This document shows positions 1 to 23,746 of a stretch of 23,746 nucleotides of DNA, in pieces. A program made the translations under genes and the position numbers. This DNA is from a virus, in IMG/VR virus record IMGVR_UViG_3300009431_000139, positions 1 through 23,746 of that record. One strand, given 5' to 3'. A model generated the notes under the pieces. It was not told the DNA's origin. It was given only the letters and a program-made list of their open reading frames with translations, and ran no database searches. Position 1 is the stretch's first letter; each line of letters opens with the position of its first letter.

Positions 1-115
1 CCAGATCCTTTTTGTACGCCTTGTTTACCGTCCAGATCTCATCCACATCAGATCCACGATGGAGATCCATTGTCTCCTCACAAAATCCTACAATCGCCAC
101 TGATCTGCTGGTCAT
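1..115 (-). CDS. Partial phage protein, Rossmann-like start (unknown function)
   Basis: The reading frame starts at ATG 113-115 and runs open to the window edge, so only the first 38 residues are seen. They begin MTSRSVAIVGFCEETMDLHR and continue through an EIWTVNKAY segment. A hydrophobic strand (VAIVGF) followed by an EIW-x-N-x-AY segment is a pattern I associate with phage proteins of Rossmann-like fold and unknown function; this is memory of family style, not a search. The ATG shares one base with the TAA of the upstream gene (TAATG), so translation is probably coupled. A GAGGAG further inside the gene could serve a later start (ATG at residue 16), but the coupled start is preferred. Confidence 0.55.
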   Translation of the reverse strand, partial: MTSRSVAIVGFCEETMDLHRGSDVDEIWTVNKAYKKDL

Positions 116-288
116 TACTTAATCACCATTTTTGTCTCAGGATCGATTAGCTCCAATTTGATCAGAGCGACCTCAATGATTTCGTCACGTACAGAAGGAT
201 GATCCCATCTCTTTCCCTTGTGTTTTACTTTGGCCTCTTTAACTTTCTGTTCTTTTTTGTCAACCACATTTATTTTTGTTGGCATCAT
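115..288 (-). CDS. Small charged phage tail-region protein (57 aa)
   Basis: This is a 57-residue frame starting MMPTKINVVDKKEQKVKEAK and ending ETKMVIK. It is very rich in lysine in its first half and has a short acidic/hydrophobic second half (EIIEVALIKLELID). It overlaps its neighbours on both sides: its ATG overlaps the TGA of the upstream gene (ATGA) and its TAA overlaps the next ATG (TAATG). That packing, plus GAGGTG just upstream, supports a real gene. Two ATGs stand in tandem (286-288 and 283-285); the second has better spacing from the GAGG. No function is recognised. Its place after the tail fibre suggests a small tail or tail-tip accessory. Confidence 0.65.
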   Translation of the reverse strand: MMPTKINVVDKKEQKVKEAKVKHKGKRWDHPSVRDEIIEVALIKLELIDPETKMVIK

Positions 289-728
289 TTCACCTCAATT
301 ACAACGGGTTCAATCTCCGAGTATTTAACATCATTTCCCTTTACTTCAATTTGCGAGTCGGGGTATTCGCTGGTCAATTCGATTTCTGTATACCCATAGC
401 CCAAAGTGTCAAATGTCTCTGCCGCAATTGGATAAACATCATCATTGATTTTTACATCCACACTACCAGTTCCACCTAGGGTCGGCATTCTTACCGTAAC
501 TGAAATTGAGTCTACGCCATCACCGATGATCTCACCAGCCTTGTTGCTACCAACACTTCCATCGATGTAGACATCAAACGACATGGGGCAAGCCATCCAC
601 GCCGCTTCAAGTGTTGCCTGATCTGGCTGCGGAACACCCGCACGCCATTCGTTAATTTCTGATTTATCGTTAGCAAGAGTATACTCATAACTTGGATCAA
701 TCTGCCATATTGCTAATGCCATATCCAT
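285..728 (-). CDS. Tail protein following the fibre gene (147 aa)
   Basis: The start is ATG 726-728, preceded by AAGGAG at a 5-base gap. A TTG 15 bases upstream is in frame but sits inside the end of the tail-fibre gene and has no ribosome site of its own. Residues 1-50 include an INEWRAGVPQPDQATLEAAW segment like the short N-terminal region of small tail accessory proteins (XkdW-like style). The rest is beta-rich, with repeated VDVKI/IEVK strands that suggest a bacterial Ig-like or carbohydrate-binding fold. It is translated 2 bases after the fibre gene stop. Likely a tail-fibre accessory or chaperone; the exact family is not recognised. Its DNA is poor in GATC, like the fibre gene. Confidence 0.6.
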   Translation of the reverse strand: MDMALAIWQIDPSYEYTLANDKSEINEWRAGVPQPDQATLEAAWMACPMSFDVYIDGSVGSNKAGEIIGDGVDSISVTVRMPTLGGTGSVDVKINDDVYPIAAETFDTLGYGYTEIELTSEYPDSQIEVKGNDVKYSEIEPVVIEVK

Positions 729-730
729 TG

Positions 731-1414
731 TCACTCCTTCCAAAATTCTGCAATTGTGTAAGTTTCTGCTTGTAAGTTTACGGCATCACCAAAACCTACA
801 GTAGCTTTAGTGTTCGTACATTGATGCTGAACTTCGAACACTTTTTGTGCAGCTATTGTAAATCTACCAACTATAAAGCTTCTATTCGAAGAAACACTGC
901 CATCTCGTTCTGCTTCTGAACTACCCGTTAACTCGACCGAAGTATCGGTAATGTTATATAAGCGTATTATATGTTCCAAACAATGAACCCCTGGCGCAGA
1001 AATAAAACACTTATAAGTTCCCGCATCTAGCGTGATCTGATTTGATGACAAAGCGGCATTGTTTCCCATATCAACCTTTTCGCTAGTTAAATCTCTTGTG
1101 CGCCACGCTCCAGAGGTGAAAGTCCCGCCATCTGTGTTCTGAGCTTTTTCATCCACGATTAAAATGTAGTTGTCGCCAGCAGTCCCCCATTCTGGTGCGG
1201 TTGCACCAGAATTAGTTTTCAGTGCCTGTCCCGCTGTGCCTATACCCAGCCTCGCAAGGGCATTTGCACCAGTGGCATACACAATATCACCAGCAGTTGT
1301 CACCTTGGCTGGAGCGGTTTCTGTTATAGATCCACTCACTCCCAGGTAATTATTCCAGATAGCACTTGTGATCAGCGTTCCAGTAGTTTTGTCAGCTCCA
1401 CCTGTCCATGCCAT
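731..1414 (-). CDS. Tail fibre / receptor-binding protein with C-terminal jelly-roll-like domain
   Basis: The protein has 227 residues; its start is supported by AGGAG 8 bases before ATG. The N-terminal 75 residues have the phage-fibre style (TSAIWNNYLG, then GDIVYATGANALARLGIG). The C-terminal 140 residues begin near YILIVDEKAQNTDGG and continue GGTFTSGAWRTRDL, then a TLDAGTYKCFISAPG strand and RLYNITDTSVELTGSSE. This is the layout of the C1q/TNF-like jelly-roll heads found at the ends of many phage fibres and of bacterial surface proteins. It probably contacts the host surface. GATC density is about 5 per kb (6 sites in 1,130 bp including the next gene) against about 35 per kb in the portal gene, which suggests exchange by recombination, as is usual for host-range genes. 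Confidence 0.75.
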   Translation of the reverse strand: MAWTGGADKTTGTLITSAIWNNYLGVSGSITETAPAKVTTAGDIVYATGANALARLGIGTAGQALKTNSGATAPEWGTAGDNYILIVDEKAQNTDGGTFTSGAWRTRDLTSEKVDMGNNAALSSNQITLDAGTYKCFISAPGVHCLEHIIRLYNITDTSVELTGSSEAERDGSVSSNRSFIVGRFTIAAQKVFEVQHQCTNTKATVGFGDAVNLQAETYTIAEFWKE

Positions 1415-1425
1415 ATATCACACTC

Positions 1426-1836: not shown

Positions 1837-1845
1837 TGTTAGCTC

Positions 1846-6482: not shown

Positions 6483-6483
6483 C

Positions 6484-6933
6484 TTAGGTCACAGTTCCCC
6501 ATGCGGGAGCAGTGGATCCAGTTGGCTTCCATCGTGCCTCGTGAACGTGCTTGTTACCATCCAGCACCACTTTGGCATCCAGGAGAACATACTCACCTTC
6601 CCAATCGGGATCACCTGCTGTTGGAGCCGCTCCAGCGGATCCAAACTCTAGTGTCAGCGTACCAGTACCACCATTCGATCCATTTAGAACCGTGGTGGCT
6701 CCTGTGGTGGCCGTATCATTCAAGTGGAAACGGGCAGTAATCTCACTGTCAGCGTGACCAGCTAAGAAATTACGCACGCTCTCACTCACTCCAGTGAGAT
6801 CCACCTCATCAAAGGTAAGACCTCCACCGGATACTGATCCGGGAACCAGATCTCCAGATAGATCTCTGGGATTTCCACCACTATCATCCCAAGTTATTCG
6901 AAATCCTCGTTCTGATTTATTTTTACCAGCCAT
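6484..6933 (-). CDS. Tail tube protein, short paralogue (149 aa)
   Basis: The start has AAGGAG 6 bases before ATG. Residues 23-73 read DLSGDLVPGSVSGGG, then FDEVDLTGVSESVRNFLAG and ARFHLND. This is the same order of motifs as in the next gene upstream (6949-7704): DLSGD, then FDQVEFTGWSENVMNFLED, then AHLND. The two are therefore paralogues. The beta-rich sequence, with VLLDAKVVLDGNKH toward the end, and its place directly before the G/GT chaperone fit a major tail tube (ring) protein. It is the shorter of the two and lacks the C-terminal domain. Which of the pair forms the main tube cannot be told from sequence alone. Confidence 0.75.
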   Translation of the reverse strand: MAGKNKSERGFRITWDDSGGNPRDLSGDLVPGSVSGGGLTFDEVDLTGVSESVRNFLAGHADSEITARFHLNDTATTGATTVLNGSNGGTGTLTLEFGSAGAAPTAGDPDWEGEYVLLDAKVVLDGNKHVHEARWKPTGSTAPAWGTVT

Positions 6934-6948
6934 ATCAAACTCCTTGTA

Positions 6949-7704
6949 TTAGGGTACTCGTCCAAAAGTAATCACAGCCGTGAGCGTACCCGAGGTTCGG
7001 GTTAACACGGCTCTTGTATAACGATTTACAGTATCAGCTCCAGATTTTCTCTCCGCAACCACTGTCGATCCATCCGCCGAAAATGTTGTAAGGGTAGCCC
7101 AATCACTATCATTAGTAGAGTGTTCAATAGTGATCGCCCAGGTTCCTCCACTAGATACCAACACGTGAAGATTAGCCTGCCACCCATTAACCGAAGAAGC
7201 CTCGTTGTCATGGGATCCGCCCGTATATGTAGCGGATCGAGATGTGGCGGCACTCAGGAGCACCCCCATAGCGCCCTCCATGTAAGCATCATACTGAGCC
7301 GCGTCCGGTAAGAAATCCGCCGTGATGATCCCCGCTCCACCATCAAACCCACCCACATCCGAGATCTGAACCCCGTACATTAGATAAGCGGGATCCGGTA
7401 TAGCAGGATCCCCACCACCACCCATTACGAAACTCAGGGGAACATTGTTAGGAGCATCCTTTAGGATGGTAAACGCCCTCCCCGCCGCATCGTTTAGATG
7501 AGCCTGATATCCACGCAATCCCAGGATCCTCCGCCCATCCTCCAGGAAGTTCATCACATTCTCACTCCATCCTGTGAACTCCACTTGATCGAACCCATTA
7601 TCCAGGGATCCATAGTTCCGAGAGTCTCCACTCAGATCATAGGCTCCCACATATAACCGGGCATCTTTCAATCTCTTGTCTTTACCACTTGGGCTCTCAG
7701 CCAT
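6949..7704 (-). CDS. Tail tube protein, long paralogue with C-terminal beta domain (251 aa)
   Basis: An open frame extends 36 codons further upstream, but those codons lie in the repeat region of the previous gene. The start chosen, ATG 7702-7704 (MAESPSGKDK), has GGAGG 6 bases upstream and gives the usual 8-base overlap with the previous stop. Residues 20-72 share DLSGD / FDQVEFTGWSENVMNFL / HLND with the 149-residue neighbour. Residues 165-251 are an extra beta-rich domain (NGWQANLHVLVSSGGTWAIT, then EHSTNDSDWATLTTF) like the surface-exposed Ig-like decorations of siphoviral tube proteins. It probably forms tube rings, alone or mixed with its paralogue. Confidence 0.75.
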   Translation of the reverse strand: MAESPSGKDKRLKDARLYVGAYDLSGDSRNYGSLDNGFDQVEFTGWSENVMNFLEDGRRILGLRGYQAHLNDAAGRAFTILKDAPNNVPLSFVMGGGGDPAIPDPAYLMYGVQISDVGGFDGGAGIITADFLPDAAQYDAYMEGAMGVLLSAATSRSATYTGGSHDNEASSVNGWQANLHVLVSSGGTWAITIEHSTNDSDWATLTTFSADGSTVVAERKSGADTVNRYTRAVLTRTSGTLTAVITFGRVP

Positions 7705-7975
7705 TTTTAACCTCCGTTCCCTCATCGTCGGGGGAAGTAGATTTAACCTCCGTTCCCTCATCGTCGGGGGAAGTAGATTTAACCTGGGGCTCCTGGGATC
7801 GTGTAACGCCATCCGCTGGGATCAAAATCCCTTGTTTCATCCATACGGTTATCACCGATTTAGGAAAATCGCCCTGTTTGATCTCGTCACCGATCTTATA
7901 GCTCTTTTTCTTTTTATCGTTTCTGAGTTCTGTGGTAGCCACTAAGATCTCAGGGATCTGTGATTTTTTAGTCAT
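7697..7975 (-). CDS. Small tail-region protein with tandem C-terminal repeat (92 aa)
   Basis: The start is ATG 7973-7975, with GGAGG 7 bases upstream and overlapping the previous TGA (TGATG). An in-frame TTG three bases earlier is unlikely. The N-terminal 65 residues are basic, with an MTKKSQIPEILV start and a stretch of four lysines (NDKKKKSYKIGDEIKQGDF); they read like a small beta-barrel or DNA-mimic style domain of unknown family. The last quarter has two exact copies of STSPDDEGTEVK in tandem. It lies between the tail terminator and the tube genes. No function recognised. Confidence 0.7.
   Translation of the reverse strand: MTKKSQIPEILVATTELRNDKKKKSYKIGDEIKQGDFPKSVITVWMKQGILIPADGVTRSQEPQVKSTSPDDEGTEVKSTSPDDEGTEVKNG
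7706..7785 (-). repeat. 36-bp tandem repeat, 2.2 copies, carrying a ribosome binding site
   Basis: Two identical 36-bp units lie at 7706-7741 and 7742-7777, followed by the first 8 bases of a third (7778-7785). The unit length is a multiple of three, so the reading frame of gene 7697-7975 is kept and STSPDDEGTEVK is duplicated. Each unit also contains GGAGGTTAAA on the minus strand. In the last unit this is the ribosome site of the tail-tube gene starting at 7704. Confidence 0.95.
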
Positions 7976-8433
7976 CAATATTCCTCCGCATCCATGATCA
8001 TTATTTGATACAAATAGATAGGCTCCGCCTCCACAAGTTCATCAGGTGTAAGGTAGGGATCAAACCAGGGAAGAACAGGAGTTTGAGATCTGATCTCATC
8101 AATGGTGATCCCCTCCAGACCATCAGCAGATCGGTTATCATCCGTATCCATAGTATCTATGATCGCCTGTCTACCATTTCTAAAGTTAATCAAAGTGGTA
8201 TCCCATCCATCAAATACCTCGACCAGCCATACCTTAATTTGCCACTTTGTGACAGGATCTCTTGTATCTCTCCTGGCCACAAAATCATCCGAAGTTTCAA
8301 TAACTACTCTACGTCCACCACTCACACTCTCATCGAACATAGAGAAATCATTGATCAGCACCTCATCATCATCGAACTCACTCATCCCTTGGATGATGTC
8401 CTGGATCCCTTCCTGGATCGTTTGTTCGCTCAT
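7975..8433 (-). CDS. Tail terminator-like protein (152 aa)
   Basis: This is an acidic alpha/beta protein starting MSEQTIQEGIQDIIQGMSEF. It has a central strand KWQIKVWLVEVFDGWDTTL, a helix NFRNGRQAIIDTMDT, and the C-terminal strand EPIYLYQIMIMDAEEY. Strand-helix-strand with a short C-terminal edge strand is typical of the siphoviral tail terminator / neck family (lambda gpU, HK97 gp11 style), which caps the tube and joins it to the head. It follows the HK97 gp10-like gene and precedes the tube genes, the expected place. The start overlaps the previous stop (ATGA) and its ribosome site is weak. The family call rests on shape and order. Confidence 0.65.
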   Translation of the reverse strand: MSEQTIQEGIQDIIQGMSEFDDDEVLINDFSMFDESVSGGRRVVIETSDDFVARRDTRDPVTKWQIKVWLVEVFDGWDTTLINFRNGRQAIIDTMDTDDNRSADGLEGITIDEIRSQTPVLPWFDPYLTPDELVEAEPIYLYQIMIMDAEEY

Positions 8434-9458: not shown

Positions 9459-9839
9459 TCACTGAAACAGGGCGTATGTGACTTGGGCGGTTCCGGTAGG
9501 CGAACCACCATCAGCATCATCCTTTAACCGGATGAAGGGAACCCCACGGATATCCAGGACAAAATAATACTTACCCGTTGCGGTCATTGAAAACTTATTT
9601 ACGGTAGAAGTTTTTGTTCCAGCGGCGGCTGTCCAGGTTTGATACTGATGCTCATCTCCACCACTTACATGGAGAGCATAGGGAACAACGAAGAGGCCGG
9701 TTTCATCCCCCTTTGTATAATCAATGTAAACACCCAGGAAACTATGACCTTGAACATTGATCTCTTTTCCAATCAGAGTTTCGGTGGCGCTTATTGTTGC
9801 GGCTGATTGGAGTTCTTCAATTACAGCAGGATAGGACAT
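9459..9839 (-). CDS. Small beta-rich structural protein (126 aa)
   Basis: The start has GAGG 8 bases before ATG, and the stem-loop 9856-9885 lies just upstream of that site. The sequence is a compact beta-sandwich type: ATISATETLIGKEINVQGHS, then FLGVYIDYTKGDETG, YYFVLDIRGVPFIRLKDDAD, and a final GTAQVTYALF strand. Proteins of this type are common as capsid-surface or neck decoration proteins in phages with repeat-rich structural genes. No enzyme motif is present. Likely a virion decoration protein; exact family unknown. Confidence 0.6.
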   Translation of the reverse strand: MSYPAVIEELQSAATISATETLIGKEINVQGHSFLGVYIDYTKGDETGLFVVPYALHVSGGDEHQYQTWTAAAGTKTSTVNKFSMTATGKYYFVLDIRGVPFIRLKDDADGGSPTGTAQVTYALFQ

Positions 9840-10244: not shown

Positions 10245-11498
10245 TTAATCGGCTTGTGTTGGCTCTACTCCGCCATCAGCATTTGATTGACCGTTACACC
10301 AGTAATCTGAACCATCGGAGATCATATAAACAAAATCTCCAACAACAGAAACACCACTGGCAAACGTGATTGTGTCACCATCGGCCTGATAGGGGCCATC
10401 TGTTCCTGTGTCCGTTTCAAGCTCATTGATTCCACAGGTTAAAACATTTTCAAGGTTATTGCCTGTGATGATCGTATAGTTTGCTCCAGAGGGAGCGGCA
10501 GTGATAACAAACCGAAAGGAACATCCTGCGGCCACCGTAGAGATCGCGGGGAGAGTGGTTTGAAATTCTGTTCCTGAATTTAGGAACATCGTTTTTCCAC
10601 ATTCCGCGGCGGTTAGGACATTGGCGGCGGTGACAACCTCAGCGAGCTCGAGAGTTCCACCCGTCCAAGTAGTGACCTGATTTTCATCAACGGCAAAGGC
10701 TGGAGTAGTACCACAAGTAGCTCCCAAGCCCACTACAAGATCATCCGCGCTATCATCCATACACGCATAGAAATCCTGTGCGTTACCATCAAAGATCAAG
10801 AGGTTATCCTCTTCTTCGGCGTTGCCGATTGTGACATCCTCATACAGGATCACATCTTGATTTTCATCTGCGCTTAGGATCGGCGTAGTACCTACAGTAG
10901 ATCCAAGGCCGAGAACCATATCATCAGCAGAATCATCCAGGGAGAAGTAATAATCTTGAGCGGCTCCATCATATAGGAGGGTGGCATCTTCCTCGCCAGC
11001 ATCTCCGATAGTTAGAACAGGAGTGGTGCCTCCCATTGTAAAATCACCATACGTAGTGACAGCCAAGTTTTCATCAATGCCAAGTCCGGGCGTAGTTCCC
11101 ACAGTAGATCCCAGGCCGATCAGGAGATCATCAGCACTGTCGTCCAGGGCGATATAGAAATCCTGTGCGTTACCGTCAAAAGTAAACTGTGCGTCATTGG
11201 CGGATCCATCAGCGATCACAATCTCTGTAGTAGTTGCGCTATCCACAAAGGAAAGTTTCGGGTCTGTACCTACAGTAGATCCATAGCCGATCAAGAGATC
11301 ATCAGCAGAATCATCCAGGGCGATATACCAGTCGTCAGCGTTACCATCGAAGGCGAAATAACTATCAGCGGCGAGCCCACTACCAACTACAAGGCTGGTG
11401 AAGTTTGTCTCACCCTCAGCAATCAATACAAATCCAGATGCGGCGACTAAAAGTAATCCAAGAACGAGGATCACGGAAATTAAACGTTTATTTTTCAT
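10245..11498 (-). CDS. Secreted-type acidic repeat protein, putative head fibre or surface protein (417 aa)
   Basis: The start chosen is ATG 11496-11498, preceded by AAGGAG; a more upstream ATG in frame falls in the stem-loop region and is less likely. Residues 1-28 look like a signal peptide (KNKR, a hydrophobic core LISVILVLGLLLVAASGFVL, then AEGE). Four repeats follow, starting near residues 50, 107, 176 and 237, each with the core FDGNAQD-x-Y-x-A-LDDSADDLLIGLGSTVGTTP. They are rich in Asp and have 57-69 residue spacing. The C-terminal 130 residues (TAAECGKTMFLNSGTEFQTT, FRFVITAAPSGANYTI) are a beta domain common in phage structural proteins. A signal peptide on a gene next to the major capsid gene is unusual. 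It may be a head fibre, an envelope-targeted protein or a lysis-linked factor. Confidence 0.7.
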   Translation of the reverse strand: MKNKRLISVILVLGLLLVAASGFVLIAEGETNFTSLVVGSGLAADSYFAFDGNADDWYIALDDSADDLLIGYGSTVGTDPKLSFVDSATTTEIVIADGSANDAQFTFDGNAQDFYIALDDSADDLLIGLGSTVGTTPGLGIDENLAVTTYGDFTMGGTTPVLTIGDAGEEDATLLYDGAAQDYYFSLDDSADDMVLGLGSTVGTTPILSADENQDVILYEDVTIGNAEEEDNLLIFDGNAQDFYACMDDSADDLVVGLGATCGTTPAFAVDENQVTTWTGGTLELAEVVTAANVLTAAECGKTMFLNSGTEFQTTLPAISTVAAGCSFRFVITAAPSGANYTIITGNNLENVLTCGINELETDTGTDGPYQADGDTITFASGVSVVGDFVYMISDGSDYWCNGQSNADGGVEPTQAD

Positions 11499-11519
11499 CG
11501 TTTTTTGCTCCTTATCTTT

Positions 11520-11554
11520 AGAGATCCCCACCCTCAATGAGAGTGAGGATCTCT
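11520..11554 (-). promoter_or_regulatory. 16-pair stem-loop between capsid gene and repeat-protein gene
   Basis: Arms are 11539-11554 and 11520-11535 with a 3-base loop (ATT in the minus strand). On the minus strand all 16 positions pair, two of them U-G wobbles; on the plus strand the same two positions are C-A mismatches, so RNA structure is kept only in the transcribed strand. It ends 6 bases before the AAGGAG of gene 10245-11498 and starts 23 bases after the capsid gene stop. No T tract follows on the minus strand. It probably sets relative mRNA levels of capsid and repeat protein (stability or partial termination). Confidence 0.75.
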
Positions 11555-11577: not shown

Positions 11578-12471
11578 TTAGGAGTCGCCCATGTAAGCAA
11601 GACGCCAATCACCATACACCACCTCATAGCGTGCATGATATTGGATGTAATGCATACCACCATTACCAGCCTGGGAGTCGAACCACATATCATTCAACTC
11701 AGGCCGCTGGCGGATCACAACCAGGATAGGCTTGGAGTCTTCACTGGAGCACACAACGATCCACGCGTCATCATCCATCTCAGGGCTAGTAATAAAGCCC
11801 AAACGACCTTGCCACGGGTTCTTCTCGCGGTTTCCTGAATTGTAGATCCAGTCATTATCCGCGATCTGAGATACCTCACGGGCGAGATTGGGAGATGTGA
11901 CAAGCAGGTCAGGAACATAGTTCACATACTCACCAGTATCATCCAGGGATTTCTGAGCCGCCACGTAGACGGTTTCAAAATTCGTGGGGGAAAAGGCGAG
12001 ATCATACTCGTTGTCCTGGTTCGTCTGATACTTTCCACCTGGATCCGTGTGATCACTGTCAAAGAACTCTTGACCGTCATAGCACAGCCCGTAGGTAGTA
12101 CCATCGCCACCGTTGAGAACCTGGAAAGCCCGTTTGTTGAGATGTTTCTGGAATGTGGGCATCAGGTTTTTGAAGTTTCGCTCCAGGGATGCGGTCTGAT
12201 CATCTCGGATTGCATTCTTGGAGATCTTCAAGGTGAGATACCAATCTTTGGGCTTTACGGTCATACCCTTTTCGATCATGGTATCGACGATCTTGGGATC
12301 TTGTGTGGGGAGCGGAGTACCGCCGAGATCAACCAATGTCTGTTCACTGGCGGTTAGATCCACCTCAAGCGCAATTCGCGAGTAAGGCATGTTTGGCTTG
12401 GGTTTTGAGATCAACACACCTGTACGGGCGGCGACCTCTAGATGTTTAGGTAATGCGTTTGAAATAGCCAT
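11578..12471 (-). CDS. Major capsid protein, Mu gpT-like (297 aa)
   Basis: The start has GAGG 6 bases before ATG. The 297-residue length is near that of Mu gpT. Recognisable gpT-like stretches are the N-terminal helix plus loop (LTLKISKNAIRDDQTASLER), the motif LCYDGQEFFDSDHTDPGG (residues about 128-145), and the C-terminal YHARYEVVYGDWRLAYMG. gpT-type proteins have the HK97 fold and build the icosahedral shell. It is flanked by a decoration-like gene, a protease/scaffold gene and a repeat protein, a normal capsid cluster. The stop is followed by the stem-loop at 11520-11554. Confidence 0.9.
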   Translation of the reverse strand: MAISNALPKHLEVAARTGVLISKPKPNMPYSRIALEVDLTASEQTLVDLGGTPLPTQDPKIVDTMIEKGMTVKPKDWYLTLKISKNAIRDDQTASLERNFKNLMPTFQKHLNKRAFQVLNGGDGTTYGLCYDGQEFFDSDHTDPGGKYQTNQDNEYDLAFSPTNFETVYVAAQKSLDDTGEYVNYVPDLLVTSPNLAREVSQIADNDWIYNSGNREKNPWQGRLGFITSPEMDDDAWIVVCSSEDSKPILVVIRQRPELNDMWFDSQAGNGGMHYIQYHARYEVVYGDWRLAYMGDS

Positions 12472-14532: not shown

Positions 14533-14544
14533 AAGATCCTTTTA

Positions 14545-14584
14545 AACGAAAACCGGGCGATCCTTTGTAAATCAGATCGCCCGG
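14545..14584 (-). terminator. Intrinsic terminator or attenuator before the capsid operon
   Basis: On the minus strand, CCGGGCGATC (14584-14575) and its perfect complement GATCGCCCGG (14562-14553) form a 10-pair GC-rich stem with a 12-base loop, followed directly by TTTTCGTTT. This is a textbook intrinsic terminator. It lies between a strong promoter (14637-14666) and the capsid protease gene, so it would stop most transcripts unless something overrides it. Confidence 0.85.
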
Positions 14585-14636
14585 CAGTCGTAATAAGTCC
14601 ACACGACAAGCGGCTCATATTAAGTTGTCACCTGGG

Positions 14637-14666
14637 ATTATGCCACAGGTACTATACAAGAGTCAA
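14637..14666 (-). promoter_or_regulatory. Sigma70-like promoter with extended -10
   Basis: On the minus strand TTGACT (14666-14661), an 18-base spacer, then TGG-CATAAT (hexamer 14642-14637). The TGN before the -10 hexamer is an extended -10 element. It lies directly after the stop of gene 14668-14868. Predicted transcription starts near 14630, leaving about 45 bases before the terminator stem. It would drive the capsid operon. Confidence 0.75.
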
Positions 14667-14667
14667 G

Positions 14668-14868
14668 CTAGATTTTAGGCATCCTCTTTTTGGCAACGGG
14701 CATCATCCTGGAGATATCGATCATCCAGGTCATCCCATCATTGGATTTTTCCAAGATGATCAAGTAAGATCCAGGATCCAATCGATCCACCTGTCTCGCT
14801 ATAGATGTGGCTCTCTTGGATGTGTCGTGGAGCTTGGGATCATCTTTCTTGTTGGGATCTTTATCCAC
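14668..14868 (-). CDS. Small basic protein of unknown function (66 aa)
   Basis: A longer frame starts at 14946 but would lie mostly inside the previous gene. The better start is GTG 14866-14868, which has AGGAGG exactly 6 bases upstream and overlaps the previous TAA by 8 bases. The product begins MDKDPNKKDDPKLHDTSKRA and ends MPVAKKRMPKI. The middle, LDPGSYLIILEKSNDGMTWM, looks like two beta strands. No family recognised. It closes the accessory block just upstream of the promoter. Confidence 0.7.
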   Translation of the reverse strand: MDKDPNKKDDPKLHDTSKRATSIARQVDRLDPGSYLIILEKSNDGMTWMIDISRMMPVAKKRMPKI

Positions 14869-15710: not shown

Positions 15711-15712
15711 GT

Positions 15713-15728: not shown

Positions 15729-15753
15729 CTCCTGGTCAATACCTAATATTCTA

Positions 15754-16113: not shown

Positions 16114-16114
16114 A

Positions 16115-16130: not shown

Positions 16131-16763
16131 TTCCTTGTCACATTGACAATTTCTTTGACACTGGCACTCGGATCCTGGGGATGGATAGGTTCCAAGGGGA
16201 GCCCACCCTCCCGCCTCGTAGGTTAGACAATCATCACAATTATTCGTACCACCCAACACTCTCCGCTCTTCCGTGAACCCAGCCTCCTCTTTAGCCTCTT
16301 GAACTCCATCGTAGTATCCAGTTCGTGACGCCTTGGCGTAGAGATCTGCCCTCCACAGGATTTGATCCCTGGTCATTTTGTTGTCGGCGATATCAAAAGC
16401 GAATTTATTCAGTTGCTGGTACTCAAAACGCAACCGCCCACCCATCCGCCCCCATGCGGTCTGTGTCATCTGCTTTACTCCACCGCGCCCCACGGATGAG
16501 GCCAACCCCCAGGAGTCTTTCACAGCGGATCCCATTTGTTTCTGCCATGTGGAGAGATCGATCTTTCCATCCAGGAATCTCTCGGTGATGTTACGCACAC
16601 CACTAGACAGATCTCCAGCGATCATCCTGCCCACATCCTTCTCCACCGTGGTATCGGATATCGGTCTACCAGTGACAGCCGATACAAACACAGCCTTGAT
16701 CCGATCCCATAATCGGGCGCCCACTCTCGCGGCCAGTATCGATTTACTCATCATCACTGTCAT
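16122..16763 (-). CDS. Head morphogenesis protein, Mu gpF-like style (213 aa)
   Basis: The N-terminus is basic and helical. Residues 80-160 are helical (DSWGLASSVGRGGVKQMTQT, then ADLYAKASRTGYYDGVQEAK). The C-terminus has the family signature N-C-D-D-C-L (176-179), GWAPLGTYPSPGSECQCQRN and a final C-Q-C, with six cysteines (176, 179, 200, 202, 206, 208) likely binding zinc. Head morphogenesis proteins of this type help build the portal-proximal head. Start: ATG 16761-16763 overlaps the end of the portal gene by 20 bases; the ribosome site is poor, so translation is probably coupled to portal translation. A second ATG pair (residues 4-5) is an alternative. Confidence 0.8.
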   Translation of the reverse strand: MTVMMSKSILAARVGARLWDRIKAVFVSAVTGRPISDTTVEKDVGRMIAGDLSSGVRNITERFLDGKIDLSTWQKQMGSAVKDSWGLASSVGRGGVKQMTQTAWGRMGGRLRFEYQQLNKFAFDIADNKMTRDQILWRADLYAKASRTGYYDGVQEAKEEAGFTEERRVLGGTNNCDDCLTYEAGGWAPLGTYPSPGSECQCQRNCQCDKEYR

Positions 16764-18408
16764 CTGGTTTGGGATTGGCTCTGATAAGAGCGGAGATCCT
16801 GGGTGAGATCTTGGCGGCGAGTTTTACCAATCGTTTAGCAAACGTATCAGGATCGATGTTCATCAGATCCGTTTCTCTTGTGAGATCGATGGGGTGCTCA
16901 TCGGGATCCACAGCAAACGGGCGGCGAGCTCCGTGGATCACGGCATGCATCAGGGCTTTTTGTAGATCCTCTTTTGAGAGATCCTCAACAGAGATCTCCG
17001 CCATCCTGGCATAATCCTCTAGAGCCACTCCCACATCCACGGAGATGATCTCATCACCTTCCTGGGGATCCTCATCCAGCGGGATCTCATCCTGATCCTC
17101 AAATGGATCCTCATCATCCTGGGGAACACTCACCACCTCATCATCACTCATCTCGGCGGTTTGTTCTGGCAAGAATTTTGATTTACGCCTCACCGCCATC
17201 TCATCATCTGTGGTGATTGAGAAGGATCTTCCAAACTTCTCCACAAATCCCGCCAGCGCGTTGAGATCGATGGGCTTCTCCACAGGCGTGGCGATCAGTG
17301 GGGGGATCCTTGTAAGATCACCAAATGATCCAGGATTATTTCTTATCAACCATCTTCCGATCTGTTGCCCGCCCTGATCAGCGAACCCCTGCATCATGGA
17401 GTTGAATACTTCCATATACATCTCACTCGCATCACTCACCGCGGCAAACGCTCCCGCTCCTGATGTGGTGGCCATACCCACCCATTGTAGAATGTAAGAT
17501 TGTAGTTTGCGGAGAGAATAAAATCGGATCGTGTCCAGTATATCTCTGGCGGCGGGGAATGGGATCGAGATCATATCTACTTCAAATTGATCCATGATCT
17601 CAGTTATAAAGTTTCCATCACTTGCGGCGGCGAGAGCTTCGGCGGCATCCGCCACCATGTTCTCCCCATCAGCGTCCAGAGCCTCCTTGACTTTGAACTT
17701 TATATATCCCGCGGTATGCTCGGCTCCGATCCCCATGATCACCTCATAGCCATACATGAGCCGCTCCATCCTCCACACGGCCTCCAGGGGGGAGAGCCCT
17801 TCGGGGTTATTGGAATCACCGAATGTTATATGTAGACACTCCTCAAATGGGAGAGGGATTGTCTCTGAGTTTTCGGCGTATGGATCCCTCTGGTTCATCC
17901 CTATTACTCGACTATTATCGCCCTCCATCCAGGATGCGAGAGTGGATTGAGATCTCCAGGCTAATCGGCGGATGCCGATCAGGCCATCATTGTATCCAGA
18001 TCTCCAGTCACTATCAGGGGAACTCCACTCATGGGATCTCAATCCTGGAGTGACGTACCACAAGCCCCAGCCCATAAATGGAACCTGGGCCGCGAGAGTG
18101 TTCCTCCACTTTTGGATCCCATCCTCAATATCATCGAGGACTTGATTTCCAAACTCCTCAAACTGTTTGTCATCATCAGTAGGATCTTCCCAGTCGATCT
18201 CATATCTAAAACCTACCTGAGATGCAAATGAGCTCATCATCAATCGAGCCACGGATATCTCGCCATCACTTCTACGGATCCTCTCTAGTAGAGAGTAACA
18301 TCCAGGCCACTCCATTTTCGTATGATAAGCCTCCTGGATAAACCCGGACATCATAGCCAATCCCTGGCTCCCCTTCTCCTTAAATCTTCCCGATCTTGTT
18401 TGTGCCAT
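16744..18408 (-). CDS. Portal protein (554 aa)
   Basis: The start has GGGAG 8 bases before ATG. The 554 residues include an N-terminal helical region (LLERIRRSDGEISVARLMMS), the central LPFEECLHITFGDSNNPEGL followed by SPLEAVWRMERLMYGYEVIM, and an acidic C-terminal tail (VVSVPQDDEDPFEDQDEIPL). NPEGLSPLEAVWR is the common portal motif ((N/D)-x-x-G-x-SPL-x-x-x-W), and the order terminase, portal, head morphogenesis confirms the call. It forms the dodecameric ring through which DNA is packaged. Because the rest of the head genes look Mu-like, it may belong to the gp29 / DUF935-type portals; I cannot settle that by eye. Confidence 0.88.
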   Translation of the reverse strand: MAQTRSGRFKEKGSQGLAMMSGFIQEAYHTKMEWPGCYSLLERIRRSDGEISVARLMMSSFASQVGFRYEIDWEDPTDDDKQFEEFGNQVLDDIEDGIQKWRNTLAAQVPFMGWGLWYVTPGLRSHEWSSPDSDWRSGYNDGLIGIRRLAWRSQSTLASWMEGDNSRVIGMNQRDPYAENSETIPLPFEECLHITFGDSNNPEGLSPLEAVWRMERLMYGYEVIMGIGAEHTAGYIKFKVKEALDADGENMVADAAEALAAASDGNFITEIMDQFEVDMISIPFPAARDILDTIRFYSLRKLQSYILQWVGMATTSGAGAFAAVSDASEMYMEVFNSMMQGFADQGGQQIGRWLIRNNPGSFGDLTRIPPLIATPVEKPIDLNALAGFVEKFGRSFSITTDDEMAVRRKSKFLPEQTAEMSDDEVVSVPQDDEDPFEDQDEIPLDEDPQEGDEIISVDVGVALEDYARMAEISVEDLSKEDLQKALMHAVIHGARRPFAVDPDEHPIDLTRETDLMNIDPDTFAKRLVKLAAKISPRISALIRANPKPDDSDDE

Positions 18409-18428
18409 TTGTTATACTCCCTGGAAGA

Positions 18429-19964
18429 TCATTCCTTCCATCTGGATTTGTGACCCTCAACTTTGGTAAGCCCTCGGATCTTTGAGTAATCAATTTTTAC
18501 ATCCTCAAAAAATGCCTGGATCACACTGTCGCCAGCATCCGTGGATCTCTTGAGGCGTTTTTTTACTTCCTTCTTACTCTCCACTTTTATCCTGGCTCCA
18601 CTCATCACTCTCCAGGATGGCGCCGTGAGATCTCCAGTAAGTTCATCATCTGGAGGAAGAGAGATCACCTCATCGATCAGGAGATCTCTCACATTCCACC
18701 ATGCGGCGGATCTAACATCAGCGAACCCTAGCTCTCCACTGATATCCTTTCTATCTGTTTTTGCTCCAGCGACAAATGGGATTATTCTCCAGGGTTTCCT
18801 CTGTGATTTACGGATCTCTCGCAAACGATCCACTACTCCAGCCCCCACTCCGATCACATCTATGATGGCATACCCTATCCACTTATCGAGTATACCCTGA
18901 GTGCGCCCTGCGACTGCCATTGTATCCCTTTCATTACTGCGAGTCAATTCTTGGATGAGCCACTCGAACCTCTTGGCGTATGTAGAGTAGTTTCCACCCC
19001 TGCCAACATCCACACCCACACAGGTAAACTTTAGATCATAATCATCCTTATTATCATTCCACTCATACCACCTCTCATTAGCCTCCTCAACCAGGGAGAG
19101 TGAGATCACGCCCACATCGGAACTCTTAGCAAAATTACCCAGCACCCTATTTTGATATACCGCAGATCCTTCTCCCCACTGTTTCCTCCTCTGGTTTGCC
19201 CAATCTTTATTGACACGCCCAGCCTTAATCGCATCCTGGAGAGACACATGAATCACATGCCAATCCTCATATCCCGCTTTCCTAGATTGGATCTCATAAA
19301 ATCTCCCCTGAGGTTCTCCAGGTGTAGAGATCGAGAGGATGTAGGCCTCACCACTAGCGAAGGCTCCCTCAGTCGCATCCCATGTATCCACGGGGATCGC
19401 CTTACTCTCATCATAGATATACAAGATATGATCTGCATGGGCTCCCTCCATTGCGCTATAATCATCCGATGTAATAGCAAACGCCTCACCCGTTGTGAGC
19501 TTAAGCGAAAGTGTTCTAAGTTCTGTTCGTGTGTTAAATGGTTTTCTCCCAATTACATCCCACCTTAGATATCTCGCCCATTTATGGATCTCAGGCCATA
19601 GAAATTTGGTAAGTTGTCTCCAAGCACTGGCAGTTGTAGGACACTTCCAATCATCCCCATCTCTAGTGAGAGCAAACCACAACACAGCCCACGCCGCATC
19701 GGCTGTCTTACCCAATCCGTGCGGACCACGCACACTCACTCTCCTCTCTTTCGGGATCCTGGCGAGTACATCCTCCTGGTAGGGAGCCGGGCCATCCTGA
19801 TCTTTAATCAATCCCCACGCAATACAATCACGCACAAATCCAGCAGGATCATCCCAATATTTCTGCTTAAATAACTGGTACTCTGTGGAGTGGAGATCAG
19901 CGCCCGCGGCTCTTTGTAATCTGTGGGAGATCTGATAGTCCAGCCATTTCTCCGTAGAGTTCAT
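18429..19964 (-). CDS. Terminase large subunit (511 aa)
   Basis: Domains are visible in order. Walker A GPHGLGKT (80-87) in an arginine-rich start (PKERRVSVRGPHGLGKTADA). A hydrophobic Walker B-like strand LYIYDE (181-186). A coupling STP motif (214-216). Then a RuvC-like nuclease with FTCVGVDVGRGGNYSTYAKR (Asp319 a likely metal ligand), AIIDVIGVGAGVVDRLREI and WWNVRDLLIDEVISLP. It is the ATP-driven motor and cutting enzyme for DNA packaging. Start: GAGGG 3 bases before ATG. It overlaps the end of the preceding gene by 68 bp; there is no later in-frame start that would avoid the overlap. Confidence 0.92.
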   Translation of the reverse strand: MNSTEKWLDYQISHRLQRAAGADLHSTEYQLFKQKYWDDPAGFVRDCIAWGLIKDQDGPAPYQEDVLARIPKERRVSVRGPHGLGKTADAAWAVLWFALTRDGDDWKCPTTASAWRQLTKFLWPEIHKWARYLRWDVIGRKPFNTRTELRTLSLKLTTGEAFAITSDDYSAMEGAHADHILYIYDESKAIPVDTWDATEGAFASGEAYILSISTPGEPQGRFYEIQSRKAGYEDWHVIHVSLQDAIKAGRVNKDWANQRRKQWGEGSAVYQNRVLGNFAKSSDVGVISLSLVEEANERWYEWNDNKDDYDLKFTCVGVDVGRGGNYSTYAKRFEWLIQELTRSNERDTMAVAGRTQGILDKWIGYAIIDVIGVGAGVVDRLREIRKSQRKPWRIIPFVAGAKTDRKDISGELGFADVRSAAWWNVRDLLIDEVISLPPDDELTGDLTAPSWRVMSGARIKVESKKEVKKRLKRSTDAGDSVIQAFFEDVKIDYSKIRGLTKVEGHKSRWKE

Positions 19965-20730
19965 ATACCCTCGATATTATGTTATTACCATTTGGAACCG
20001 TCTCGAGTTCCGCCACAAATAAACTGATCAGTGCGTCTAATCTCATCAACACCGCGGATCTGGTCATCATCTCTCCCTTATCCGCCATGATCTTCCTCTC
20101 TGTGTCTACAAGCTTTCTCACCTGTTCTGTTTGATCGTTGATCCCCTCAATTTGTTCCTGGAGATCCGCTCCCTGTTCCAAGAGATCTCCCAATAACACA
20201 AGACCATTAGCAAATCCCTGGGCATCCTTCTTGGATTGAGCTTCCAGGGTTTGATCGTATACCTCTTTTGCCCTGGTCCATAACTCAATAGAGTCTACGC
20301 GCCCAAGGAGTTCAACCCTGGAGGCCAGTAGTGTCCGGGTCAATTGTAGTTCCTGGGTGACTGTTACCTGATCGGGATCCGATGCAAACTCAATATGCTT
20401 AGAGAGTAGATCTCCCGTGAGATACTTTGACAATCCTTTCCCCTGATAATTTGGATGTGCGGTTCCCTTTAGAGATGCCCCTCCGTGTCTCTTACATGCT
20501 CCCCCCGCTCTCTTAACCTTCATCCTACAGTATCGATGATGATTGCACTCTGGACAGTGGAGGAGTTCATACTCACTGGCTGGATATCTGTGGCCACAAG
20601 ATGAACACCGCTTTACTCTACGGCAACAATAATCTTGATCACAGGTATCACACCGAAATCGATCCCCGATCTGGTAAACAGATCCAGCACAGGATCTCAC
20701 AGTACACTCGAAAACTGGAGTATCGGTCAT
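19897..20730 (-). CDS. Terminase small subunit candidate with N-terminal zinc fingers (277 aa)
   Basis: The first 80 residues contain twelve cysteines (such as C-D-T-C at 27-30, C-S-S-C at 42-45, C-P-E-C at 59-62), giving two or three zinc-finger-like motifs. Residues 78-104 (ACKRHGGASLKGTAHPNYQG, ending KGLSKYL) resemble the H-G-G ... H/N-P-N-(Y/F)-x-x-G ... S-K-Y-L signature at the start of many phage small terminases. The C-terminal half is a long helix with coiled-coil character (EQIEGINDQTEQVRKLVDTE) for oligomer formation. Adjacency to the large subunit agrees. ATG overlaps the methyltransferase stop (ATGA). It may recognise the packaging site. Confidence 0.72.
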   Translation of the reverse strand: MTDTPVFECTVRSCAGSVYQIGDRFRCDTCDQDYCCRRVKRCSSCGHRYPASEYELLHCPECNHHRYCRMKVKRAGGACKRHGGASLKGTAHPNYQGKGLSKYLTGDLLSKHIEFASDPDQVTVTQELQLTRTLLASRVELLGRVDSIELWTRAKEVYDQTLEAQSKKDAQGFANGLVLLGDLLEQGADLQEQIEGINDQTEQVRKLVDTERKIMADKGEMMTRSAVLMRLDALISLFVAELETVPNGNNIISRVYELYGEMAGLSDLPQITKSRGR

Positions 20731-21773
20731 CCCAATATTGCTTGCCTAATATTGGCTGCTACCGCATACATGAATAGGGGTGGAACACTATTGCCAACCT
20801 GATCAAGTATATTATTCCGCTGACCATATATTTTGTAATCTTCTGGAAAGGATCCCAGCAACATGATCTCCTTTGCAGTTAGAAAGCGCGGATAATTCCA
20901 ATGCACAAGCCCTGTACCTGCCGACTTAATGATCGTCGGAGATGGCCTATTCGGATTTAGCTTGATTGTTCCAAACATATTTCCCTTTGGATGATACTTG
21001 CTTGCTGACTCTCCATGCTGTAATAGTTTCCAATATGGCCTGGTTGATGGATTTAAATCTGGACCACCAAAACTCTCAAGATGCCCTATAGCTGCCTTCG
21101 TGCTAACTGGCCTAAACTGTGGAGTAGGGTATATACTGCCATTCCCCCTATCCCGGAGATCATCGCGAATACCAATAAATATAAGTCGCTCCCTTGACTG
21201 CGGAACAGAATACCAGCACATATTCAACAAGCGCACACTAACTTTATAGCCTGCTTTTTTTAGTTCTTTTACTATTTCAGAGAAAATTAATTTCATTTTC
21301 CCCTGAATTAGCCCGCTAACATTCTCCATTACAAATACCTTTGGCTTAATTTTCTTCAACAAGCGAGTATATTCCAAATAGAGCATGTTTCTATTATCTT
21401 CAATATTTCGCTTTCCTGCATTGCTAAACCCCTGACACGGAGGAGAACCATCTAGAACATCGAGCTCTCCAGGCGCCAATCCTATAATATCAAGGCACTC
21501 CGATGATGACAATAGTCTAATATCTCCATTATATATTGGCAACTCCGAATTATTATTTTTCAGTGTTGTAACTGCATACTTATCCCACTCAACTGCTAAT
21601 AGCTCTCTATACCCAGCCATTGAATATCCAAGCATAGATCCACCACAACCCGCAAATGTAGATACTACAGTAGGAGCATTTATATCCTTTGGTATAAGAT
21701 GCTTATTCCACATAATATCTAAATGCTTTATATAGTTATCTATTTCGGGAAGTCGTGACCACACTCTGGACAT
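20727..21773 (-). CDS. C5 cytosine-specific DNA methyltransferase (Dcm family, 348 aa)
   Basis: The C5-methyltransferase motifs are in order: FAGCGGS (I, 40-46), GSPPCQGFS (IV, catalytic Cys113), ENV (VI, 150-152), QSRERL (VIII, 192-197), RPSPT (IX, 276-280) and GNSVPP (X, 327-332). The target-recognition stretch between VIII and IX is short. It probably modifies phage DNA against host restriction. No endonuclease gene is next to it. GATC occurs only 6 times here (5.7 per kb) against about 35 per kb in the portal gene, and the gene is AT-richer than its neighbours, so it looks recently acquired. The start at 21773 overlaps the ParB-like gene by 34 bases; a later ATG (residue 21) is possible. 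Confidence 0.93.
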   Translation of the reverse strand: MSRVWSRLPEIDNYIKHLDIMWNKHLIPKDINAPTVVSTFAGCGGSMLGYSMAGYRELLAVEWDKYAVTTLKNNNSELPIYNGDIRLLSSSECLDIIGLAPGELDVLDGSPPCQGFSNAGKRNIEDNRNMLYLEYTRLLKKIKPKVFVMENVSGLIQGKMKLIFSEIVKELKKAGYKVSVRLLNMCWYSVPQSRERLIFIGIRDDLRDRGNGSIYPTPQFRPVSTKAAIGHLESFGGPDLNPSTRPYWKLLQHGESASKYHPKGNMFGTIKLNPNRPSPTIIKSAGTGLVHWNYPRFLTAKEIMLLGSFPEDYKIYGQRNNILDQVGNSVPPLFMYAVAANIRQAILG

Positions 21774-22237
21774 TCTATATATTTAACCTCATCTGCAACA
21801 GTTTCATCATAGGATTTTTCTTGTGGTTCTAGTATAAACTCTAGATCCAACTCGCGCTCTTTAAAGCCCTGTTCCAAAAGATCATCAAGATCAAAGAATG
21901 TGGAGAGCTTATCAAAATCTATTTCTCCTACTGCACCCTTATACAGTATTATCGTTAGTTCCTTTTGCTCAACTTCTGTCAGACCTCTACTAGATACTCT
22001 TACATCTACCTCAAGCTCTGGTCCGTACTCGTCAGCAAGTTCCCACACTCGCTTTCTCTGATGCCCATCATATAGCTCATTATTAGGTCCAATTGCCAAG
22101 GTTATAACTTGACCGAACTTCTTAAGAGATTGACGTAATCTGCGCGCATTATCTTTAGTTATTTGTTTTGGATTTTTCTCCCACTCGATAAGATCTCCCA
22201 ACTTTCGCCGCTCATTCTTCCAGGTTATTTTATCCAT
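21740..22237 (-). CDS. ParB/sulfiredoxin-like nuclease-domain protein (165 aa)
   Basis: ATG directly follows the previous TAA, with GAGG 5 bases upstream. Residues 12-100 show the ParB/Srx fold: LGDLIEWEKNPKQITKDNAR, LKKFGQVITLAIGPNN, then YDGHQRKRVWELADE with the G-H-Q-R core at 58-61 (the GH-R signature of ParB-type CTP/nucleotide-binding proteins). The C-terminus has a C-P-E-C-G-H knuckle (about 156-161). In many phages a ParB-like gene sits right before a DNA methyltransferase, as here, and may act as its specificity or DNA-clamping partner or as a DNA-modification cofactor. GATC content is low (4 sites in 498 bp). Confidence 0.82.
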   Translation of the reverse strand: MDKITWKNERRKLGDLIEWEKNPKQITKDNARRLRQSLKKFGQVITLAIGPNNELYDGHQRKRVWELADEYGPELEVDVRVSSRGLTEVEQKELTIILYKGAVGEIDFDKLSTFFDLDDLLEQGFKERELDLEFILEPQEKSYDETVADEVKYIECPECGHDFPK

Positions 22238-22459
22238 TTAATCCTCTCTATCCCCATACTCTACAATAGCATTTCGTACAGCCTCATAAGCCCGATTGTA
22301 GATGTCAGTAAACTCCTTACTCGGCCATTTGTGGTGACGTTTGATTGCCCTTGCTACGGGTGGCATAAACTTCTCCACCCTTGGATCGCCAGGGCTCCAA
22401 AGTTTTGGAGGGTTCTCAATTACAACTATTGGGGGTTGGCTTTTGACTTTTTTGCTCAT
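22238..22459 (-). CDS. Small unknown protein (73 aa)
   Basis: GAGGAG lies 2-3 bases before ATG. The protein begins MSKKVKSQPPIVVIENPPKL and is basic in the middle (ARAIKRHHKWPSKEF), with a helical C-terminus (FTDIYNRAYEAVRNAIVEYG). The stop abuts the ParB-like gene. It resembles a small DNA-binding or partner protein, but no family is recognised. Confidence 0.65.
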   Translation of the reverse strand: MSKKVKSQPPIVVIENPPKLWSPGDPRVEKFMPPVARAIKRHHKWPSKEFTDIYNRAYEAVRNAIVEYGDRED

Positions 22460-22472
22460 AGCTCCTCTAAGT

Positions 22473-22691
22473 TTACATATTAAAAGTAGAATGGATTATA
22501 GATCCAATCACAAACAGGATCACAACCAATGCTCCCAGCCCCATCCAGATCCACCACGGGAAGGATGAGACATATCTCTTAGGGAACCGCCTGTCATGGA
22601 TCGGACACTCCGCCTCTGGTTCTAACCCATAAGGTTCCTCAACTACACAATAATTACCGCAATCTATAAGATGATCATCTGGTGGGGTCAT
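22473..22691 (-). CDS. Small membrane protein with N-terminal zinc-type motif (72 aa)
   Basis: Start chosen at ATG 22689-22691 (MTPPDDHLIDCGNYCVVEEP). A TTG at 22727 gives 12 more residues but sits one base from its GGAG. Residues 11-32 hold C11, C15, C29 and H32, a possible zinc site. Residues 45-66 (FPWWIWMGLGALVVILFVIG) form one clear membrane segment, followed by SIIHSTFNM. This could be a small anchored regulator or an anti-host protein; it is too short and lacks other holin traits. A 9-codon leader frame (22717-22688) ends in a TGA overlapping its ATG. Confidence 0.55.
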   Translation of the reverse strand: MTPPDDHLIDCGNYCVVEEPYGLEPEAECPIHDRRFPKRYVSSFPWWIWMGLGALVVILFVIGSIIHSTFNM

Positions 22692-22698
22692 AATTCGG

Positions 22699-22727
22699 AG
22701 TATAGCGTAAATCCCATAAAAACGCAA
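22699..22727 (-). promoter_or_regulatory. Candidate sigma70-like promoter for the membrane-protein gene
   Basis: TTGCGT (22727-22722), 17-base spacer, TATACT (22704-22699) on the minus strand. Five of six -10 bases match the consensus; the -35 box matches weakly. A start near 22692 would make the mRNA nearly leaderless at ATG 22691. The same bases also allow the coupled leader frame, so the two readings compete. Confidence 0.4.
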
Positions 22728-22747
22728 TCTCCAGGAGCGTTTCTAAG
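22728..22747 (-). repeat. 20-bp leader repeat, copy 2
   Basis: CTTAGAAACGCTCCTGGAGA on the minus strand matches the copy at 15189-15208 in 19 of 20 positions. Here the GGAG is not properly spaced for the next TTG; it lies 11 bases before ATG 22717 (the short leader frame). The match in two otherwise unrelated leaders is unlikely by chance. Confidence 0.85.
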
Positions 22748-22962
22748 GGATTTAAACACCTCATAGGGTAATAAGTATTACATAGGCGGGGATTCACCCC
22801 CTAGGTGAGATGTAGGCATATCCTCTCAGGTGATTTACAGGAGTATAGTAACAAAACGGGAGATGCGGTAGGAAAAATACCAGGTGCTTCACTCACCCGA
22901 TACAAAAAAACCCACATCTCCCTATAGGAGGAAAGGGGCTATGCCAAACCCCTTACAGGTTA
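22748..22962 (-). other. Structured non-coding region (leader, operator or origin candidate)
   Basis: No reading frame with a ribosome site is seen here. Visible parts: GTAATA-AG-TATTAC inverted repeat (22768-22781); mutually exclusive small stems around GGGGATTCACCCC and TCACC-CCCTA-GGTGA near 22789-22807; repeated AGGTGA words at 22803 and 22829; an 8-pair stem GGGAGATG/CATCTCCC (22858-22865 with 22915-22922) enclosing two small stems and followed on the minus strand by GTTTTGTT; and an AAGGGG/CCCCTT stem near 22933-22953. A TATAAT box at 22962-22967 stands just before it. This could be an mRNA leader with a riboregulatory fold, an operator cluster or part of an origin. Confidence 0.55.
22858..22922 (-). 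promoter_or_regulatory. Eight-pair stem enclosing two four-pair stems (leader RNA candidate)
   Basis: GGGAGATG at the 5' end and CATCTCCC at the 3' end of the minus-strand RNA pair as an outer stem. Inside, GGTG-7 bases-CACC and GGTA-7 bases-TACC form two equal small stems, a three-way junction shape. A U-rich GUUUUGUU follows. This could act as a terminator or as a ligand-sensing fold; neither is proven. Confidence 0.45.
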
Positions 22963-22991
22963 TTATACTTCATCCTGGGGATCTTCTCCAA
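22962..22991 (-). promoter_or_regulatory. Candidate promoter overlapping the winged-helix gene stop
   Basis: A perfect TATAAT (22967-22962, minus strand) overlaps the TAA of gene 22963-23298. TTGGAG (22991-22986) lies 18 bases upstream as a poor -35 box. Transcription would start near 22955 and read through the structured region toward the membrane-protein gene. Confidence 0.4.
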
Positions 22992-23298
22992 ACCCACCTG
23001 GATCATCGCTCTCCAGGAGCCTGGTGAGAGTTAATACAGGATCACCATCCCCATCCAGGGATCCAGGAACAGAGAACCCTAGAGTTTTTCTTCCCGTTTC
23101 TTTTGATAGGATCTCACGGGAGAACAGGATCCCCTTATCCACCATATCGACCAGACGTTTTCTAGTTCGATCTACAGAATTTACAGAAGGAAAGATATTG
23201 AACCTGTGCGCCTCCTTTGCTGTGAACTCCACTTCTGTTTGATAGGGAGTTTCATAATACCTTTTTAGATCCTCCATGATAGTCCTTTTAATGCTCAT
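22963..23298 (-). CDS. Winged-helix-like DNA-binding protein (111 aa)
   Basis: The protein has an early helix (MEDLKRYYETPYQTEVEFTA), a KEAHRFNIFPSVNSVDRTRK region with a likely recognition helix (NSVDRTRKRLVDMVDKGILF), and a beta wing (SREILSKETGRKTLGFSVP): a winged-helix shape. The C-terminus is acidic. The ATG overlaps the upstream stop (ATGA); an internal ATG at 23277 (MEDLKR) with AAGGA upstream is an alternative start. It lies immediately upstream of the structured non-coding region with an inverted repeat, so it may control that region. Confidence 0.6.
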   Translation of the reverse strand: MSIKRTIMEDLKRYYETPYQTEVEFTAKEAHRFNIFPSVNSVDRTRKRLVDMVDKGILFSREILSKETGRKTLGFSVPGSLDGDGDPVLTLTRLLESDDPGGFGEDPQDEV

Positions 23299-23746
23299 AT
23301 CACAATAACCTCATCCTCCTCCTGTTCATAATCGAGAACAGGACACTCCCACATCACCTCTCCATCGGGTTCCACCACCGCAAAAAACATCCCCAGGGCA
23401 GACACATCTCCTGGGGCGATCTTATATCCGAACTCTGTTTTAGCTTGCAACGAAGGTAACAGGATCCCATCAATCCGCGTTGTCTTACCCTGATAATAAC
23501 GATGACAGTAGATGTGTCGATGAGCTCTCAGCCAAAACCTGGGGATCCTGGATCCTCTATCCAATAGCTCAAAGTATAAGGACACAAGATACTGGCGAAG
23601 AGCGTTACCCTCCAGATACTTCCTCCGCCCCTTCCCCACCTCAGCATGATGAGCAATATCAAACAGGATCCCATTGAGATCCAATCTCAACCGATCCCAC
23701 ACATATCGACCATCCTTATACTCCTGGGCGGCGGTTCCTTTTCTCA
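23295..23746 (-). CDS. Partial calcineurin-like metallophosphoesterase (C-terminal part)
   Basis: A GTG at 23702 could be taken as a start, but the frame stays open to the window edge; the extra codons read KGTAAQEYKDGRYVWDRLRL, matching the linker of this family. The protein is therefore cut at the right edge. Visible family marks: LNGILFDIAHHAEVG (the GxxFDxAHH block), RAHRHIYCHRYYQG (histidine metal-binding motif) and LLPSLQAKTEFGYKIAPGDV. Phage proteins of this type look like nucleic acid phosphoesterases. The acidic C-terminus ends YEQEEDEVIVI. The N-terminal metal ligands are outside the window. Confidence 0.7.
   Translation of the reverse strand, partial: RKGTAAQEYKDGRYVWDRLRLDLNGILFDIAHHAEVGKGRRKYLEGNALRQYLVSLYFELLDRGSRIPRFWLRAHRHIYCHRYYQGKTTRIDGILLPSLQAKTEFGYKIAPGDVSALGMFFAVVEPDGEVMWECPVLDYEQEEDEVIVI

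Follow-up and report, generated by a model that had tools for sequence, protein, structure and literature searches.

Over-use of the palindrome GATC in a fragment of an uncultured tailed phage

Analysis of a 23,746-bp IMG/VR fragment from an uncultured tailed bacterial virus (GC 47%; this whole stretch is referred to as the window) confirmed that the tetranucleotide GATC is over-used. The window contained 390 GATC sites, or 16.4/kb, against an order-0 expectation of approximately 90, which corresponds to a 4.2- to 4.4-fold excess. A pull towards GATC was demonstrated by shuffling and by codon context.

Size and distribution of the GATC excess

Pfam and PHROG searches identified a tailed-phage structural module on the minus strand of the window, together with a C5-cytosine methyltransferase gene and a ParB-like gene (Table 1).

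Table 1. Features of the window, with supporting matches and GATC content
Feature	Position	Strand	Match	GATC and remarks
GATC excess, genome-wide	1..23746	.		390 sites, 16.4/kb, about 4.2x
XkdW-like tail-region gene	285..743	-	PF09636, E 2.5e-6	3 GATC, 0.56 of expectation
Tail-end gene	731..1414	-	no Pfam match	3 GATC, 0.91 of expectation
Tail-module protein	6484..6933	-		74% identity to counterpart in GATC-rich L085/L204
Major capsid protein gene	11578..12471	-	PHROG 371, E 1.4e-26	15 GATC
Protease-like gene			PHROG 328
Between annotated genes	14533..14860	.		10 GATC in 328 bp; example of non-genic excess
Portal-protein gene	16744..18408	-	PHROG 113, E 1.9e-7 (weak match)	40 GATC, 24/kb; contains the 21-site stretch 16741-17340
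Terminase large subunit	18429..19964	-	PHROG 2, E 2.8e-27	24 GATC, 15.6/kb
C5-cytosine DNA methyltransferase gene	20727..21773	-	PF00145, E 3.9e-62	6 GATC, 0.74 of shuffle expectation; GC 0.40
ParB-like protein gene	21740..22237	-	PHROG 620, E 1.1e-16	4 GATC, 0.85 of shuffle expectation; GC 0.40

The expected number of sites rose to 164-173 under an order-1 Markov model (2.3-2.4x) and to 328-338 under the order-2, maximal-order model (about 1.15-1.19x). The latter is insensitive because GATC itself inflates the counts of GAT and ATC. The annotated genes contained 349 GATC, compared with 193 ± 9 under a synonymous-codon shuffle and 223.6 ± 7.9 under a shuffle preserving proteins, codon usage and dinucleotides. 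With this second shuffle of the genes, GATC was the most enriched of all 256 tetramers (z = 15.9). The excess was present in all three reading frames (127 observed vs 97 expected, 59 vs 23, and 163 vs 75), and the intergenic DNA, with 42 sites in 2.26 kb against 14.4 ± 3.6 under a first-order Markov model, was as dense in GATC as the genes.

These data bear directly on whether amino-acid content, codon usage and dinucleotide bias could generate the excess as a by-product. Those factors alone yield 224 of the 349 genic sites, and the low maximal-order ratio is in keeping with such an origin; however, the distance between observation and shuffle, and the intergenic excess, refute it as a sufficient cause, and we regard it as very improbable. 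The earlier note on this DNA had proposed the codon- and dinucleotide-preserving shuffle as the analysis that could overturn its claim, and the excess survived it. Its view that the bias runs opposite to restriction avoidance was likewise supported, the data indicating an active preference for GATC.

The sites were spread along the window. The 1-kb bins held 5-24 GATC, the excess was absent from only about four genes, and the counts per 250 bp were near Poisson (var/mean 1.10). Recounting reproduced exactly the previously recorded 21 sites at 16741-17340, 6 at 20727-21773 and 6 at 285-1414. The first of these stretches, at 35/kb, had been described as about nine times expectation, which holds as a local peak but not as an overall level: it is close to the maximum expected when 390 sites are evenly scattered (600-bp scan, p = 0.10; 1-kb scan, p = 0.04), and the figure to quote is therefore approximately 4x.

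Other features of the window were also recorded. Four imperfect repeats of ~127 bp (61-70% identical to the copy taken as reference) were present at 10708-11392, within a 430-aa gene (10245-11537) for a repeat protein with FDGNAxDxYxxxDDSADDLxxGxGSTxGTTP units. A 36-bp perfect tandem duplication was identified at 7706-7777, where the ORFs at 6949-7812 and 7697-7978 overlap. Under the codon- and dinucleotide-preserving shuffle, CCGG was strongly depleted in the window genes (21 sites vs 51 ± 5) and GGCC was low (44 vs 70), while GCGC and CGCG were low by composition. The phage depleted in CCGG encodes a predicted C5-cytosine methyltransferase.

Favoured word and codon context

The favoured word was plain GATC rather than a longer motif. 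No extended consensus emerged around the sites, the flanks being near neutral with a departure only at the two adjoining bases, and the only spacing signal in the gaps between sites was the codon period. Relative to order 0, GGATCC, AGATCT and TGATCA were raised 9.0-, 5.6- and 3.9-fold, with 46 copies of GGATCC vs 12.2 in dinucleotide shuffles. CGATCG was present in two copies (0.39x), consistent with the general CpG shortage of the phage.

The over-abundant cyanobacterial palindrome HIP1 (GCGATCGC) also contains GATC, but it needs a CGATCG core, the very hexamer that is depleted in the window. The near-neutral flanks and the depletion of CGATCG thus speak against the HIP1-like longer signal that had been suggested for this DNA. 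HIP1 and CGATCG methylation are dealt with elsewhere (PMC6604393).

Synonymous sites able to form GATC were nearly saturated with the choice that makes it. The aspartate codon GAT was used in 119 of 121 cases before C (98%, vs 82% elsewhere), serine TCN in 56 of 57 cases after GA (98% vs 66%), leucine CTN in 46 of 47 cases after GAT (98% vs 71%), and glycine GGA in 34 of 38 cases before TC (89% vs 32%). These choices vary with the neighbouring bases, so GATC accounts for part of the codon bias, which further weakens the by-product explanation.

Every alternative base at the mutable synonymous positions was depleted, to between 0.05- and 0.57-fold, by transitions and transversions alike; in the xGN|TC context, the values were 0.19 for C, 0.05 for G and 0.35 for T. 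Biased mutation or repair, either VSP-like or through gene conversion, could in principle convert near-sites into GATC, and GACC/GGTC was indeed the scarcest one-step neighbour (0.38 of the first-order expectation), as a C-to-T process would yield. However, GAC was scarce in other contexts as well (GACT 0.35, GGAC 0.36), and a single biased mutation would deplete one neighbour only, while the depletion of all the alternative bases, transversions included, fits motif selection. Biased mutation is thus an improbable source of the excess, which looks like selection for GATC.

GATC-poor genes

Four genes of the window (285-743 and 731-1414; 20727-21773 and 21740-22237) contained 16 GATC vs 33.4 expected (P = 0.0007, gene-scaled shuffle, for a set chosen post hoc), and their codon-context odds ratio was 3.2, compared with 8.9 in the remaining genes. 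The minimum of a 2-kb scan was located at 20951 (p = 0.001) and that of a 1-kb scan at 251 (p = 0.049). Both GATC-poor islands were bordered on each side by GATC-rich DNA. The GC content of the methyltransferase and ParB-like genes was below the 0.42-0.52 typical of window genes, and PF00145 was not found in the 13 relatives searched.

Recent acquisition is the natural reading of these genes, and we infer that the methyltransferase/ParB pair and the two tail genes arrived recently and have not yet ameliorated. The near-saturation of silent GATC options elsewhere points to a long-standing pull that the newer genes would not yet have felt. The proposal in the earlier note that GATC density works as a map of mosaicism stands locally, at these four genes, but such a map is coarse at best: the genes were picked post hoc, the rest of the window is near Poisson, and the protein sequence of a 381-bp gene at 9459 likewise leaves it with few sites (1 GATC, 1.2 expected).

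Viral relatives, candidate hosts and the origin of the preference

Relatives were sought with the terminase large subunit. The nearest viral contig had 59% identity by terminase, and a search with the portal gene found no relatives. Codon-context preference was expressed as a Mantel-Haenszel odds ratio over five synonymous GATC contexts, a measure little affected by GC content, and was compared across 86 viral records of at least 8 kb. The window gave 7.2, and its annotated genes alone 8.5 (gene bootstrap 6.2-11.5). The viral odds ratios were bimodal, with three of the 86 at 7-10 and the remaining 83 at or below 2.4 (median 1.0). L085 and L204, the latter a more complete record of the former, gave 9.8 (GC 40%) and are syntenic with the window, and L069 gave 8.9 (GC 64%), while L206 and L207, relatives with the same tail module, gave 1.1-1.4.

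Relatives with homologous terminases ranged from 0 to 4.7x GATC, and no positive evidence was obtained for the use of GATC in DNA uptake or packaging, as had earlier been considered. Four records of the same terminase family (L050, L051, L052 and L054) had no GATC in 12.7-16.6 kb, where 48-63 sites were expected. So the excess was gained in particular lineages, independently of gene content. The four GATC-free records are apparently near-identical. Near-complete avoidance was also observed in L055 (11.7 kb; 1 GATC vs 46 expected) and L056 (21.5 kb; 4 vs 83), and L138, a 12.7-kb viral contig found via the methyltransferase, had 0.0 GATC/kb.

The phage matches the already described, unexplained over-use of GATC in mycobacteriophage subcluster B3, where, genome-wide, GATC reaches fourfold and GGATCC more than fourfold the expected frequency, while the sister subclusters differ and the cause was left open (Siranosian et al. 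2015, PMC4841201). The window, which was matched to B3 by the published description of B3 alone, resembles it in the 4.2-4.4x level, the spread over the whole fragment, the raised GGATCC and the presence of related phages lacking the excess. B3, however, comprises cultured mycobacterial phages, whereas the window derives from an uncultured phage of GC 47% in which AGATCT, TGATCA and GGATCC are all raised. Beyond B3, the new elements are the intergenic and codon-context evidence for motif selection, the recurrence at GC 40, 47 and 64%, and the GATC-free relatives.

The same tetramer is used by the Dam/MutH system of Escherichia coli, but no match to the Dam families TIGR00571 or PF05869 was found in the 23,746-bp fragment, and MutH was found in none of 48 candidate-phylum genomes, GATC-rich and GATC-poor alike, although the actual host may lie outside these phyla. 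MutH-directed repair, as one form of the methyl-directed process suggested earlier, is thus unsupported in these phyla, and a phage-encoded Dam was rejected for the fragment. Among the relatives, TIGR00571 was matched in 0 of 50 and PF05869 in 1 of 50 (the record of L078).

Selection might act on the phage itself rather than through an inherited host-wide bias, with dense GATC helping the phage, for example if methylation of GATC by the host marked the DNA as self or altered its repair or replication. The bimodal odds ratios would suit this explanation, as would a trait common to phages at three different GC contents and the B3 phages, which carry the fourfold excess while sister subclusters on mycobacteria, hosts that lack Dam, do not (PMC4841201). 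Against it, no GATC-reading gene was found in the fragment, Dam families are essentially absent from the relatives, no benefit is known, and phiX174, a phage of a Dam/MutH host, goes the opposite way and is without GATC (PMC5014478). We consider selection on the phage itself possible but the less likely account. A broader version, in which several tailed-phage lineages would independently have acquired GATC saturation as a strategy that benefits the phage through a GATC-reading system of the host, regardless of chromosome bias, is offered as speculative and rather doubtful.

The preferred explanation, to which we assign a probability of about one half, is that the phage has tracked a bacterial host lineage whose chromosome prefers GATC. 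Terminase relatives were present in Chloroflexota, Calditrichota, KSB1 and actinobacterial assemblies at 38-58% identity, none of them close. Chromosomes in the phyla hosting phage relatives ranged from almost no GATC to approximately 15/kb. The densest chromosome slices had 14-15 GATC/kb with observed-to-expected ratios of up to 5.9, and across 87 slices, mostly picked for high GATC, the median odds ratio was approximately 2, with most values at 1-3.5 and two at 4.8 and 6.3. A preference for GATC thus exists in chromosomes and varies among them, which lends plausibility to host tracking.

No host matching the GATC level of the phage was found among ~910 genomes of Chloroflexota, Calditrichota, KSB1 and Actinobacteriota; measured as close pairs (GATC-N(0-30)-GATC), the maximum was ~4.7/kb vs 7.4/kb in the window. 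The GATC-rich chromosomes sampled were mostly of GC 0.57-0.76 with CpG-flanked sites, unlike the phage. In 13 provirus-like loci, GATC followed that of their own genomes weakly (rho 0.40, p 0.17). Dam presence as a predictor of GATC density in Chloroflexota was contradicted by an informal comparison of two tables: TIGR00571 was unmatched at E 1e-10 in most of the densest genomes but matched (E 2.5e-59) in the nearly GATC-free G256. Close GATC pairs were nearly lacking in two Chloroflexota genomes (G256, 32 in 5.1 Mb; G154, 6 in 0.9 Mb).

Under host tracking, the plain palindrome would long have been favoured in the phage genome, most likely on account of the host. The true host would belong to a GATC-preferring lineage, in which a cellular system would probably methylate GATC or recognise it in some other way.

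Because they are cut by restriction enzymes, short palindromes are usually lost from phages. The build-up of GATC in a phage, against its codon and base composition, demonstrates that this motif can instead be favoured. The within-gene context test is insensitive to base composition and can be used to screen any phage collection, and examples at GC 40, 47 and 64% beside GATC-free relatives make the cause of the B3 case testable.
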